This document shows positions 35,007 through 40,826 of a DNA stretch of 64,000 nucleotides, piece after piece. The position numbers and the translations under genes are program-made. How positions within the stretch are numbered: the first letter of the stretch is position 1; every line of letters begins with the position of its first letter. This stretch comes from Sphingobacterium bambusae (GTDB lineage Bacteria > Bacteroidota > Bacteroidia > Sphingobacteriales > Sphingobacteriaceae): the NCBI RefSeq assembly GCF_033955345.1, contig NZ_CP138332.1, positions 3,782,001 to 3,846,000 on the forward strand, given 5' to 3'. A model generated the notes under the pieces. The model had not been told where the DNA came from. It made no database searches and worked only from the letters and a program-made list of their open reading frames with translations.

Positions 35007-35588
35007 CTAATTCAAATTTTTGTTTTCGTCGTCCAACCCTGCATTTGCAGTCATTGTACCTGGTTCTTCTACCGGTCTTCCGCCATTGTAGTAGTAGCGT
35101 TTCCAATAGGCTTCGTTTAGGTTGCTCACCATCACGCCTCGACTTGATGAAGCATGTGCAAATTTGTCGTCACCAAGGTAGACGCCAACATGTGTGATGT
35201 GTCTGCTACGAATCTTAAAGAACACTAAGTCGCCAGGTTGCAAATCATTTTTACGGATCTGCTTTACGTTAGCATACTGATTACGGCTGTTGTAACCGAT
35301 CGTCGTGTTAAATACATTTTCATAAACCGCCAATGAAAACTTAGAACAATCAATTCCATTTTTCGAATCACCTCCCAAACGATAAGGAGTGCCTACCCAT
35401 TCGTACACAAATTGGTAAAGCTTGGTGTTAGCCATCGCATTGGAGGCAACGCCCATGATTTGTGAAAAATATTCTTTAGCTAGGTTATCCGGATCGGAAG
35501 AGGTGGTTTTTGATTTGGTTGTTTGTGCCTGCGACACTAGACATAAGCCTATGAAGAGCATTCCTGCTACTAGTTTCTTTGTATTCAT
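35007..35588 (-). CDS. NlpC/P60 (C40) family wall peptidase
   Basis: 193 residues: signal peptide (cleavage at about SQAQ), helical N terminus and an NlpC/P60 domain (about 55-175). Catalytic residues are Cys81 (GIDCSKF), His133 (ITHVGVYLG) and a third polar His145 (FAHASS). Such enzymes cut gamma-D-Glu-diamino acid bonds in peptidoglycan stem peptides. The GTPYRLGGDSKNGIDCSKF motif is standard. It is upstream of a strong terminator. No SH3 or lipid anchor is present, so it is probably periplasmic. Confidence 0.9.
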   Translation of the reverse strand: MNTKKLVAGMLFIGLCLVSQAQTTKSKTTSSDPDNLAKEYFSQIMGVASNAMANTKLYQFVYEWVGTPYRLGGDSKNGIDCSKFSLAVYENVFNTTIGYNSRNQYANVKQIRKNDLQPGDLVFFKIRSRHITHVGVYLGDDKFAHASSSRGVMVSNLNEAYWKRYYYNGGRPVEEPGTMTANAGLDDENKNLN

Positions 35589-35827: not shown

Positions 35828-35860
35828 TTTGATATATCTAAAGATTAACTCCTATATTTA
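35828..35860 (+). promoter_or_regulatory. Candidate thr operon promoter
   Basis: TTTG (35828-35831) and TATATTTA (35853-35860) with a 21-nt spacer approximate the Bacteroidetes -33/-7 pair. Transcription would start near 35864, 15 nt before the leader peptide. Confidence 0.4.
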
Positions 35861-35878
35861 AAAAGTTTTTAAAAGACC

Positions 35879-35944
35879 ATGTACAGACACACTATTATTA
35901 CATCCATTATTATTACCACCGGGATATTATATCGGAGGAAGTAA
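35879..35944 (+). CDS. thrL: thr operon leader peptide
   Basis: A 21-residue frame, MYRHTIITSIIITTGILYRRK, too short for ordinary gene callers. It has four Thr and six Ile codons, concentrated at residues 5-16, as expected for an attenuator that reads charged tRNA-Thr and tRNA-Ile. E. coli ThrL (also about 21 residues, Thr/Ile-rich) is the functional analogue. The 8-nt GGAGGAAG over its last codons (35934-35941) can pair with the 5' arm of the terminator at 35979-36008. The stop codon TAA is at 35942-35944. thrA starts 102 nt later. Confidence 0.8.
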   Translation: MYRHTIITSIIITTGILYRRK

Positions 35945-36008
35945 TTCTATTGTATAAATAAGTGTACACGACATATAGAGCCTTCCTCCTCCGGGGAAGG
36001 CTTTTTTT
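35934..36008 (+). terminator. thr attenuator: terminator and competing antiterminator
   Basis: Terminator: AGCCTTCC (35979-35986), 8-nt loop, GGAAGGCT (35995-36002), then seven Ts. Antiterminator: GGAGGAAG (35934-35941) is exactly complementary to CTTCCTCC (35982-35989), which overlaps the terminator's left arm. A ribosome stalled on the Thr/Ile codons leaves GGAGGAAG free and blocks termination; a ribosome at the stop codon covers it and permits termination. Confidence 0.8.
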
Positions 36009-36046: not shown

Positions 36047-38494
36047 ATGAAAGTATTAAAGTTCGGTGGAACGTCAGTCGGGACGGTGGAGAGCATCAGC
36101 GCAGTACTGGATATTGTTAAGAAGTCCTTTGACGAGGGAGAAAAGCCCCTAGTGGTTTTATCAGCGATGTCTGGGGTAACGAACCTGCTTACCAAGATGG
36201 CAGAGCATGCGGCAGAACGACTTCCCTTCGAGGACGATCTGAAACTTTTGGAAGAACGGCATTTCGAAGTTGTAAAGAAATTGATAGCTGTAAAATTTCA
36301 AAACCCGGTATTTACCAAACTGAAGCTTATGCTGAACGATTTGGAAGAGATACTGCAAGGCGTAAGCGCGCTGAAGGAGCTCAGCGCGCAAAGTAAAGAC
36401 CTGATTGTCTCTTTCGGTGAGCGTCTTTCCAACTACATGGTTTCCAAAGTGATGGAGCAATATGTGGCGCAGGTAGAGTTTGTAGATGCCTCGCACTATG
36501 TAAAAACCGATTCGAATTTCGGCAACGCGCATGTGAACGAGGAGCTTACCCAGCAATTGATCCAATCACTGGGGCATAGCCATGCAGATAAGTTGTTGTT
36601 TGTAACCGGCTTTATCGGTTCCAACGAAAAAGGCCGCGTGACAACGTTGGGTCGCGGTGGCTCCGACTATACAGCTGCAATATTTGGAGCTGTTTTACAG
36701 GCATCGACCATCGAGATATGGACCGATGTAAACGGTATGTTGACGGCCGATCCACGTATTGTCAAGAAAGCATTTTCGCAAACGATCCTTTCCTATACGG
36801 AAGCGATGGAACTTTCTTATTTCGGCGCCAAGGTGATCTATCCACCGACGATGATACCGGCATTTTTGAAGAAGATCCCTATCGTTATCCGGAATACTTT
36901 TGAACCTGCTTTTCCCGGCACGACTATACAGTTTGAAAGTGGTAAGTCTGCTTTTCCGATAAAAGGCATATCATCAATCTCCGATATTTCGGTGATCAAT
37001 CTATCTGGTAGCGGCATGATTGGAAAGTCTGGATTCAGTGGTCGCCTGTTTACCTTGCTGGCGCGCGAACAGATAAACGTAGTACTGATCACCCAGTCGT
37101 CTTCGGAGCACAGCATTACATTTGCAGTCAATCCAGATGATGCTGCAAAAGCGGTAAGTTTGATCGAAGCGGAATTCGAACTGGAGCTGGAAGCTAATAA
37201 GTTGCAGTTGCCGGTGGTTGAGGAGAATCTTTCGGTTTTGGCCATCGTCGGCGAAAACATGAAACGCACACCAGGCATGTCGGGGCGCTTATTTTACGCC
37301 TTGGGCCGAAATGGTATCAACGTGCGCGCTATTGCACAGGGATCCTCCGAGCTGAATATTTCGGTGATCATCGGTAAGGAAAATTTGGCTAAAGCTCTCA
37401 ATGCGGTGCACGATGCGTTCTTTGCGGCGTTGAAGAAGACATTATATGTGTTCAACGTGGGGACTGGAAACATTGGAGCCACGTTGTTCAGACAAATCCG
37501 TGAGCAGCATGATTTTCTATTGGATAATAATGATATTGAAATAAAAGTGGTCGGCGTTTCCAATTCGAGAAAGATGTTTTTTGATGTGGATGGCATCGAC
37601 TTAGAGCATTGGTCGGAGTCGTTGGAAGCCAGCGGAGAGGTGGCCGATCTGGCCTCCTTTATTGAGCGTATGCGCGCCATGAACCTACCAAATTGTGTAT
37701 TTATAGATAATACAGCGAGCAAGTTGCCCTCGACCTACTACGAGGATATCTTTAAAGCGAATATTTCGGTTGTCACTTGTAATAAAATTGCCAATTCTGG
37801 CGCATATGCCCAATACCAGCTGTTGCGCGAAACAGCGCGCAAGCATGGCGTAGATTTCTTTTATGAAACCAACGTGGGGGCAGGTTTGCCTATCGTTCGG
37901 GTCTTGAAAGACTTGATGTTAAGCGGCGATCGTCTCGTGAAGATCGAGGCTATACTATCAGGAACGATCTCCTACATCTTCAACAACTTTGTGGGCGAGG
38001 CTTCTTTCTACGAAACGGTAAAACAGGCACAAGCATTGGGATATACCGAGCCCGATCCACGGGATGACCTCGGCGGTGTGGACTTTATGCGTAAGATGTT
38101 GATCTTGGCGCGTGACGCTGGTCATGCCTTAGAACCAGAAGCGGTAGACTTGGGAGCCATATTGCCTAAGGCCTGTTTAGAGGCTTCTTCGGTGGATGAT
38201 TTTTATGCAGAACTATTAAAGGCGGATAGCTATTTCAATGGACTCAAAGAGCAGGCGGCTAGCGAAGGAAAGGTGATTCGTTATATCGGAAAACTCGAAG
38301 AGGGCAAGGTTTCTATTGCGTTGGAAATGGTAGATGAAAATCACCCATTCTATGCGCTATCGGGTAGTGACAATATCATCTCCTTCACGACAGAGCGTTA
38401 CAAAGATCGTCCATTGGTGGTGAAGGGGCCTGGCGCGGGTGCAGAAGTAACTGCGGCAGGTGTGTTTGCAGACTTAGTGAATGTAGGAGCATAA
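36047..38494 (+). CDS. thrA: Bifunctional aspartate kinase / homoserine dehydrogenase
   Basis: 815 residues. The kinase half begins KFGGTSVGTVESI and includes ACT-type regulatory segments (about 300-460). The dehydrogenase half starts about residue 465 with the nucleotide loop NVGTGNIGATLF and has ETNVGAGLPIV and the homoserine-site KxxGxGA near the end (VKGPGAGAEVTAAG). It catalyses the first and third steps from aspartate to threonine; end-product feedback through the ACT domains is expected. It is first in thrA-thrB-thrC and is controlled by the upstream attenuator. Confidence 0.97.
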   Translation: MKVLKFGGTSVGTVESISAVLDIVKKSFDEGEKPLVVLSAMSGVTNLLTKMAEHAAERLPFEDDLKLLEERHFEVVKKLIAVKFQNPVFTKLKLMLNDLEEILQGVSALKELSAQSKDLIVSFGERLSNYMVSKVMEQYVAQVEFVDASHYVKTDSNFGNAHVNEELTQQLIQSLGHSHADKLLFVTGFIGSNEKGRVTTLGRGGSDYTAAIFGAVLQASTIEIWTDVNGMLTADPRIVKKAFSQTILSYTEAMELSYFGAKVIYPPTMIPAFLKKIPIVIRNTFEPAFPGTTIQFESGKSAFPIKGISSISDISVINLSGSGMIGKSGFSGRLFTLLAREQINVVLITQSSSEHSITFAVNPDDAAKAVSLIEAEFELELEANKLQLPVVEENLSVLAIVGENMKRTPGMSGRLFYALGRNGINVRAIAQGSSELNISVIIGKENLAKALNAVHDAFFAALKKTLYVFNVGTGNIGATLFRQIREQHDFLLDNNDIEIKVVGVSNSRKMFFDVDGIDLEHWSESLEASGEVADLASFIERMRAMNLPNCVFIDNTASKLPSTYYEDIFKANISVVTCNKIANSGAYAQYQLLRETARKHGVDFFYETNVGAGLPIVRVLKDLMLSGDRLVKIEAILSGTISYIFNNFVGEASFYETVKQAQALGYTEPDPRDDLGGVDFMRKMLILARDAGHALEPEAVDLGAILPKACLEASSVDDFYAELLKADSYFNGLKEQAASEGKVIRYIGKLEEGKVSIALEMVDENHPFYALSGSDNIISFTTERYKDRPLVVKGPGAGAEVTAAGVFADLVNVGA

Positions 38495-38503
38495 GAAACA
38501 ATT

Positions 38504-39484
38504 ATGGAACTGGGAAAAAAACAATACCAAATAGATTTTAGCAAGATACTTGATCAGATTCGGGTTTTCGCACCGGCTACCGTTGCCAATATGATCTGCG
38601 GATTTGATGTGTTGGGGTTCGCCGTCGATCATCCCGGCGATGAAGTTGCCATGTATCGTGTGGCGGAACCGGGCGTTCGCATTCGTTCCATAGTGGGCGA
38701 TGAAGGGCGTTTGCCTTTAGATGCGGATAAGAATACGGTGAGTGCCTGCGTAAAAATGCTGCTTTCTCACTTAGGACTGCAGGAAGAACTGGGGGTGGAA
38801 ATCGAACTGACCAAGCATATGCCCATTGGCAGTGGGCTGGGATCGAGTTCGGCTAGTACCGTGGCGGGGCTTTTCGCTATCAACAATTTGTTGGGTAATC
38901 CGCTATCCACAGCAGAGCTGATGCCCTTTTGTGTGGAAGGAGAACGGCTAGCCTGCGGACATGGACATGCTGACAATGTGGCGCCTGCGCTGATGGGCGG
39001 AATCACGCTGATTCGCGGCTACAACCCTTTGGACGTGATCAAGCTGCCCGTGCCGGATGAATTGTATGCGGGGATCGTGTTTCCGCAGGTGGATGTACCT
39101 ACGCGCGATGCACGGCAGCTGATTAAGGAGAAAGTATTGTTGAAAGATGCGGTGACGCAATGGGGCAATATTGCAGGACTTATCGCTGGGCTCTACGAGT
39201 CGGATTACGACTTGATCAGTCGAAGTATGCACGATGTGCTTATAGAGCCTACGCGAGCAATTCTTATCCCTGAATTCTATGAAATGAAACGTATCGCGCT
39301 AGCAGCAGGAGCATTGAGTTTCGGTATTTCCGGATCAGGACCATCGGTGGTGGCTATTGCGCGCGGCAGCGATATTGCCGAGCGTGCTGCGACGGAAATC
39401 CAACAACATTTGACCGATTGCGATATCGATAGCTTGAAGTATGTTTCGGCCGTAAATGTTGGCGGCCCAAAGGTCTTAGGCTAA
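38504..39484 (+). CDS. thrB: Homoserine kinase
   Basis: 326 residues, GHMP kinase family. The ATP loop PIGSGLGSSSASTVAGL is perfect, and VFAPATVANMICGFDVLGFAV is the homoserine kinase N-terminal motif. The N terminus is about 20 residues longer than usual before VFAPATV (MELGKKQYQIDFSKILDQI). It phosphorylates homoserine to O-phosphohomoserine. It is 9 nt after thrA and 34 nt before thrC. Confidence 0.97.
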   Translation: MELGKKQYQIDFSKILDQIRVFAPATVANMICGFDVLGFAVDHPGDEVAMYRVAEPGVRIRSIVGDEGRLPLDADKNTVSACVKMLLSHLGLQEELGVEIELTKHMPIGSGLGSSSASTVAGLFAINNLLGNPLSTAELMPFCVEGERLACGHGHADNVAPALMGGITLIRGYNPLDVIKLPVPDELYAGIVFPQVDVPTRDARQLIKEKVLLKDAVTQWGNIAGLIAGLYESDYDLISRSMHDVLIEPTRAILIPEFYEMKRIALAAGALSFGISGSGPSVVAIARGSDIAERAATEIQQHLTDCDIDSLKYVSAVNVGGPKVLG

Positions 39485-39518: not shown

Positions 39519-40826
39519 ATGAAATTATATAGTACCAATAATAAAGATTTACGCGTCTCCTTCCAAGATGCGGTATTCCATTCACTGCCGCAGGACAAAG
39601 GCTTGTATATGCCTGAACAGATCCCCACGCTAGATCCGGCATTTATTCGAAATATTCAGCAATATTCTTTGCAGGAAATTGCATTCCATGTTGCCCATGC
39701 GGTAATCGGGGATGCCATCCCTGCTGTTGACTTAAAGGTAATTATTGCTGATGCGATCAATTTTGATGCTCCAGTAAAATTCTTAGATGCCGAGCAGGCG
39801 GTCTTAGAATTGTTCCATGGTCCGTCCTATGCGTTCAAGGATTTTGGCGCGCGCTTTATGAGCCGTGTTATGGGCTATTTTTCCAAGCAGGGCGACCAGC
39901 TGTTGGATGTACTGGTGGCTACCTCCGGCGATACCGGCGGCGCTGTGGCGCTAGGCTTTCTTGGGGTAGAAGGCACACGCGTCACTATTCTTTATCCCAA
40001 AGGAAAGGTATCTAAAGTACAAGAAGAGCAGCTGACGACCAATGGACAGAATATTCGTGCGCTGGAGGTTGATGGTACCTTCGATGACTGTCAGGCTTTA
40101 GTGAAGAGGGCGTTTAATGATGAGGAGCTGAACAGCAGCTTACGTTTGACATCGGCCAATTCCATCAATATTGCGCGTTTGATTCCGCAAACGTTCTACT
40201 ATTTCTGGGCGTATGCACAGTTGAAGTCTCAAGGAGCAGATCAGGTCGTGTTTACGGTGCCGAGCGGTAATTTTGGAAATATTGGTGCCGGTTTGTTGGC
40301 TTATAAAATGGGGCTTCCCGTGAAACACTTTGTGGCAGGAACCAATGTAAATGATACGGTACCACGCTTTTTGCAAGATGGACAGTATGTGCCAAAACCA
40401 TCGGTGCAGACCCTAGCCAATGCTATGGATGTAGGCGATCCGAGCAACTGGGTGCGCATTCAGGATCTATTTGATCAGGATGTCGATGCCATTCGCGCAG
40501 TGGTGTCGTCTTACACGTATAACGACGAGGAAACAAAACAAGGTATGGAAGAACTTTTCGAACGATACCACTATGTTGCCTGTCCGCATACGGCAATAGC
40601 GTATCTCGCAGCCAAGCAGTATAGAAAAGAGCATGATGGTAATTATGCTTCCGTATTCCTGTCGACCGCGCATCCCTGCAAATTTCCCGACGCCATATCT
40701 GCAGAAGCTTTCCAAGCCATCCAGCTTCCAGAGGGGGCGTCCGCGTTAGCCGAAAAGGAACGCTTAGTAACGGAAATCGAGGTGGATTATGAAGCTTTCA
40801 AAGCTTATCTGCTTGCCAATAAATAA
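39519..40826 (+). CDS. thrC: Threonine synthase
   Basis: 435 residues, PLP-dependent. The PLP lysine is in SYAFKDFGARF, followed by SGDTGGAVALG, the phosphate-binding loop. The N-terminal motif MKLYSTNNKDLRVSFQDAV fits the Bacteroidetes and E. coli type. It turns O-phosphohomoserine into threonine, finishing the thrABC pathway. A strong terminator lies just after the stop and also serves the converging YceI gene. Confidence 0.97.
   Translation: MKLYSTNNKDLRVSFQDAVFHSLPQDKGLYMPEQIPTLDPAFIRNIQQYSLQEIAFHVAHAVIGDAIPAVDLKVIIADAINFDAPVKFLDAEQAVLELFHGPSYAFKDFGARFMSRVMGYFSKQGDQLLDVLVATSGDTGGAVALGFLGVEGTRVTILYPKGKVSKVQEEQLTTNGQNIRALEVDGTFDDCQALVKRAFNDEELNSSLRLTSANSINIARLIPQTFYYFWAYAQLKSQGADQVVFTVPSGNFGNIGAGLLAYKMGLPVKHFVAGTNVNDTVPRFLQDGQYVPKPSVQTLANAMDVGDPSNWVRIQDLFDQDVDAIRAVVSSYTYNDEETKQGMEELFERYHYVACPHTAIAYLAAKQYRKEHDGNYASVFLSTAHPCKFPDAISAEAFQAIQLPEGASALAEKERLVTEIEVDYEAFKAYLLANK

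Follow-up and report, generated by a model that had tools for sequence, protein, structure and literature searches.

With high probability, the leader upstream of thrABC in Sphingobacterium bambusae controls these genes by ribosome-mediated transcriptional attenuation, sensing threonyl-tRNA and probably, in this species, isoleucyl-tRNA as well. The element lies within the window, i.e. the whole stretch of 64,000 nucleotides that was analysed (NZ_CP138332.1, positions 3,782,001 to 3,846,000). A preliminary description of this DNA had proposed a complete classical attenuation circuit in front of thrABC, which is supported by the conserved reading frame and the conserved pairings of region 2 with region 3 (2:3, antiterminator) and of region 3 with region 4 (3:4, terminator); the 1:2 hairpin, which is needed to complete the circuit, was added by comparison with relatives. 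The sequence itself establishes the reading frame, all three pairings and the fact that these are conserved.

Architecture of the thr Leader

Three genes of threonine synthesis follow the leader on the forward strand, namely thrA (36047-38494; bifunctional aspartate kinase/homoserine dehydrogenase I; NCBIfam NF006959, 1015 bits, cut-off 726), thrB (38504-39484; homoserine kinase; NF002288, 368 bits, cut-off 194) and thrC (39519-40826; threonine synthase; TIGR00260, 286 bits, cut-off 167). The gene on the other side of the leader (35007-35588, minus strand) is divergent, hence there is no co-directional gene other than the leader that the terminator could serve. Direct reading and an upstream scan of relatives gave TTTG (35828-35831, forward strand) as the candidate -33 box of a Bacteroidota sigma-A promoter, and the scan gave TATATTTA (35853-35860, forward strand) as the candidate -7 box, for which the consensus TAnnTTTG is reported in PMC9723704. 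Transcription would then start near 35864-35867, and the span from candidate promoter to terminator is about 145 nt. Of 142 relatives, 107 carry the arrangement TTG-N18-23-TAnnTT in the 70 nt that precede the leader, as compared to 9.5 expected from shuffles.

The leader peptide gene (35879-35944, forward strand) starts with ATG at 35879-35881, comprises the 21 codons of MYRHTIITSIIITTGILYRRK and ends with TAA at 35942-35944, so that the 21-codon Thr/Ile frame of the preliminary description is correct to the base. With 4 Thr and 6 Ile codons, the predicted peptide carries the end-product codons that are characteristic of classical attenuators, and a Thr-rich frame of this kind precedes thrA throughout the Sphingobacteriaceae.

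All four regions lie on the forward strand. Region 1 (35909-35922) consists of the Ile and Thr codons ATTATTACCACCGG and pairs in the fold of the window with 35932-35945 to form the putative 1:2 protector hairpin. The core of region 2, GGAGGAAG (35934-35941), lies directly 5' of the leader stop codon and is the exact reverse complement of CTTCCTCC (35982-35989), which confirms base for base the 8-nt complementarity proposed between the leader end and the left arm of the terminator. Region 2 is extended by TTCTAT (35945-35950), which pairs with ATAGAG (35975-35980) as a second antiterminator helix; neither this helix nor the 1:2 hairpin had been listed before. Region 3, ATAGAGCCTTCCTCC (35975-35989), provides the right arm of the antiterminator and the left arm of the terminator, and region 4 (35995-36008) comprises GGAAGGCT and the T tract of the predicted intrinsic terminator. 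The perfect 8-bp stem and the seven Ts noted previously are both present, as AGCCTTCC (35979-35986) pairs with GGAAGGCT (35995-36002) and the T tract covers 36002-36008, with the first T paired within the stem; upon folding, the stem lengthens to 12 bp with G-U pairs. The segment 35982-35989 is common to both structures, by which terminator and antiterminator would exclude one another as in a classical attenuator, and this mutual exclusion, already part of the preliminary description, is conserved in relatives with compensated cores.

Folding with an RNA program, which the preliminary description had put forward as a check, bears out these structures, since none of 200 shuffles was as good as the 161-nt leader (-37.8 kcal/mol, z -4.15), the antiterminator alone (-19.9 kcal/mol, z -3.5) or the terminator alone (-18.5 kcal/mol, z -3.6). 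Taken alone, the 1:2 hairpin in the window's leader is unexceptional (-8.3 kcal/mol, z -1.1), hence support for it comes from comparison.

Conservation in the Sphingobacteriaceae

The thrA loci were drawn from named Sphingobacteriaceae genomes, 94 genus genomes, 121 family genomes and a phylum-wide draw, and upstream DNA of thrA was added for genera still uncovered. The working set consists of 142 distinct thrA leaders, each chosen because it combines a Thr/Ile-rich frame with a terminator; both features are thus built into the set, its sequences are related and counts are not independent events, hence the tests below address features outside the selection. Because the MAFFT alignments (A1 and A2) lock onto the stop codon and not onto region 2, pairs were counted with per-sequence scripts. 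The 142 leaders span 18 of the 21 sampled genera of the family that carry thrA; among the other three, g5 has another leader type, and no leader was seen in g8 or g9. Nearly all members examined have a short Thr-rich frame upstream of thrA, and the terminator typically lies 17-46 nt past the leader stop, with a mean hairpin energy of -19.4 kcal/mol over the 142 leaders. A lack of the frame or of the two pairings in relatives had been named beforehand as grounds for giving up the attenuator reading; all three are conserved across the Sphingobacteriaceae, and the reading stands.

Thr is present in every one of the 142 leaders, with 2-11 residues per leader among the last 24 residues counted, while Ile varies from 0 to 9 and certain Mucilaginibacter leaders are almost pure Thr. 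As judged from this composition, Thr is the constant signal and Ile, which is absent or rare in some leaders, is optional; in S. bambusae, sensing of Ile is plausible.

A gapless 2:3 helix of at least 6 bp is found in 138 of the 142 leaders. The usual core in relatives is GGAGGAAG/CTTCCTCC, and Pedobacter-like leaders have it changed on both sides to CGGGGC/GTCCCG, as do further lineages with CGAGGGAAGT/GCTTCTCTCG, TCGGGAAGGT/GCCTTCCCGA, CGGAAGGT/GCCTTCCG or TGGGGG/CCCCCA. Region 2 pairs with its own region 3 at a mean of -15.5 kcal/mol, as opposed to -9.6 kcal/mol when region 2 is shuffled. Within the non-consensus leaders, own partners reach -13.8 kcal/mol, compared to -10.2 kcal/mol for partners swapped among themselves, -10.4 kcal/mol for their region 3 with the consensus region 2 and -12.5 kcal/mol for their region 2 with the consensus region 3. 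Between the flanks of the region 2 core and the terminator loop, no covariation was seen beyond a marginal first position (35 of 65 paired, 30.6 expected), hence the 2:3 claim is restricted to the core and the additional spacer helix. Relatives differ in the sequence of the spacer, which nevertheless folds better on average than its shuffles (mean z -1.28, 59% below -1), and this gives moderate support to a second antiterminator helix that is conserved as a pairing, comparable to that in the window.

The GGAGG within region 2 is read in all three codon frames, i.e. in frames 1, 0 and 2 in 50, 48 and 14 leaders, and the peptides accordingly end in ..RRK, ..GGR or ..EEG. As read from these frames, it is the RNA, rather than the peptide, on which selection acts at this site.

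Codon choice speaks for the protector hairpin. Among the final two Thr codons of the 117 leaders that contain Thr-Thr-Gly, ACC accounts for 212 of 234 (91%), as opposed to only 73 of the 428 earlier Thr codons (17%). The letters of ACC-ACC-GG pair with region 2, and the 1:2 hairpin is weakened by synonymous recoding (mean z -1.9). That the ACC bias is confined to these two final codons agrees with a 1:2 protector hairpin, and it is this codon choice over 117 related leaders that points to the protector expected of a classical attenuator.

Proposed Mechanism and Alternative Explanations

From this architecture we infer stalling, an order of folding and termination in the cell. When charged Thr-tRNA is ample, the ribosome would reach the leader stop codon and cover region 2 (GGAGGAAG), so that region 3 would pair with region 4 and RNA polymerase would stop near 36005. 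Under Thr shortage, the ribosome would stall in the Thr/Ile run, and region 2, located about 13 nt past the last Thr codon, would stay free to pair with region 3 during transcription, upon which the polymerase would read on into thrABC. If the leader is untranslated, or the ribosome is released, region 1 would pair with region 2 and the terminator would form.

The geometry is consistent with this sequence of events. In 83 of 112 leaders, 12 or 13 nt of variable sequence separate the last Thr codon from GGAGG. With the usual bacterial ribosome footprint, a ribosome with its A site on the last Thr codon would leave region 2 just free. The suggestion that the footprint might be unlike that in Escherichia coli therefore found no support, as the spacing in most members agrees with an ordinary bacterial footprint. 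In certain lineages, the leader stop is 24-28 nt away from GGAGG, and a ribosome bound there would cover region 2 only in part.

The terminator is present in 141 of 142 folds when region 2 is masked, and with region 2 free, equilibrium folding still favours the terminator in 120 of 142. The models place antiterminator and terminator near each other in energy, hence the choice between them must be kinetic and the antiterminator would have to win by forming first. The two conformations of the trp attenuator are likewise similar in stability (PMC1183508).

Several other explanations for the leader were considered. The candidate promoter and the terminator bracket about 145 nt, which could be a short independent transcript, such as a small RNA or the message of a small protein, closed by a constitutive intrinsic terminator and unrelated to Thr supply. 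This is very unlikely, because the Thr-rich frame stays beside thrA over 18 genera and the 2:3 complementarity persists through compensated core changes and across three reading frames, none of which a plain small RNA needs. A metabolite riboswitch or a protein-bound leader, in which the short frame would have arisen by chance, would likewise present a structured leader with a terminator, and no Rfam family reaches its cut-off here; yet what is conserved are Thr codons and two competing stems instead of an aptamer-like domain, and the spacing from Thr codon to region 2 is nearly fixed, which makes such a leader extremely improbable.

It is just as hard to credit that GGAGGAAG serves as a Shine-Dalgarno-like site at which ribosomes pause or re-initiate, and not as region 2. 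The segment does contain GGAGG, which in Mucilaginibacter is followed by an ATG at a plausible spacing; however, Bacteroidota ribosomes do not recognise Shine-Dalgarno sequences according to PMC9976891, and Pedobacter and other lineages have CGGGGC, CGAGGGAAG or TGGGGG in its place, with region 3 altered to match. The attenuator reading leaves room for a further, quite unlikely, conjecture, namely that SD-blind ribosomes allow the Sphingobacteriaceae to use the SD-like GGAGGAAG as an antiterminator arm without unwanted initiation or pausing, or, in a stronger version, that ribosomes without bS21, in which SD recognition is regained, would change read-through at this leader. If true, the design of the attenuator would depend on the translation-initiation system.

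Other Leaders in the Bacteroidota

A covariance model of the thr leader (R1) kept only 7 base pairs, and its weak matches outside the Sphingobacteriaceae were rejected as instances of the same element, as they comprise other leaders together with plain terminators. Through this model, short frames rich in Ile, Val and Thr, followed by terminators, were observed in other Bacteroidota before ilvD (L272, L274, L278-L280 and L282), and a similar frame and terminator precede an ilvE-like gene (L273) and a threonine dehydratase-like gene, ilvA (L276), while a Tyr-rich leader with a terminator precedes a prephenate dehydrogenase-like gene (L277); all of these genes were named from their translations only. 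The biased short frame and the terminator are shared with the thr leader, whereas amino acids and genes differ. Unlike in several of these Bacteroidota, no leader peptide or attenuator was found upstream of ilvE-ilvD in the genome of the window itself (L294:180-510).

A second type of thr leader is present before thrA in families f2, f3, f4, f8, f9 and f23 and in genus g5 (L160, L163, L204, L209, L212, L213, L214, L216, L217, L221, L223, L224, L236, L256 and L260). Its Thr-rich frame ends mostly in TTP*, TTR* or ITG*, and the stop codon lies in or beside the loop of a 4-8 bp hairpin, the arms of which covary (TACCCC/GGGGTA, AACCCC/GGGGTT, ACAACCC/GGGTTGT and ACGGG/CCCGT). On inspection, an intrinsic terminator with a T tract was not evident in most of these loci, and the second type possibly uses a different attenuation mechanism. 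A leader similar to that of the window was observed in one genome of family f2 (L141, G207). Its frame (..GMTTIMSIMGDVQSWR) is rich in Met, Thr and Ile, its region 2 reads TGGAGGTAAGG and its terminator arm CCTTCCTCC; this leader may sense more than one amino acid of the aspartate family.

Comparison with Known Attenuators

No earlier thr attenuator in Sphingobacterium or its relatives was found in the open-access literature; a comparative study of bacterial attenuators from 2010 (Lopatovskaya et al.) may include such a case. Among the closest known systems is thrL of E. coli, which has a Thr/Ile-rich leader, regions 1-4, of which region 2 lies at the end of the leader, and an intrinsic terminator. 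The S. bambusae element resembles thrL (Rfam RF00506, Thr_leader) in the Thr genes downstream (here thrA, thrB and thrC), the Thr/Ile-rich leader, the layout of the four regions and the intrinsic terminator, but it differs in that the sequences of regions 2 and 3 are unrelated, the candidate promoter is of the Bacteroidota type and Ile codons outnumber Thr codons in the leader. Moreover, the earlier Thr codons in the Sphingobacteriaceae are mostly ACA, while E. coli uses ACC (PMC1183508). At the Rfam cut-offs, no match was found in the leader stretch, and the gathering cut-off of RF00506 (55 bits) was reached neither by the window (21.4 bits) nor by the best relative (49.2 bits); as judged from its architecture, the element works like the E. 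coli thr attenuator, yet is outside RF00506 by the rule of Rfam.

With the classical trp and his attenuators of the Yanofsky type, for which the mechanism is described in PMC1183508, it shares competing 2:3 and 3:4 pairings of similar stability, a 1:2 protector and a stop codon at region 2, whereas it would sense Thr, and a separate polymerase pause hairpin is not demonstrated here. Within the phylum, PMC9723704 states leader-peptide attenuation in general terms for amino-acid operons of Flavobacterium psychrophilum, which are alike in phylum, in the class of operon and in the leader-peptide type.

The kind of element is thus already known, and the Sphingobacteriaceae thr attenuator is, by comparative evidence, a new and well-supported example of it. 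It would place classical Thr attenuation in many genera of the Sphingobacteriaceae, far from the proteobacteria in which it was worked out, and the thr-leader model of Rfam misses it. The near-fixed 12-13 nt from the last Thr codon to region 2 would provide a sequence-based limit on the footprint of SD-blind ribosomes, and an attenuator of this type would imply that ribosome and polymerase are tightly coupled in the Bacteroidota.
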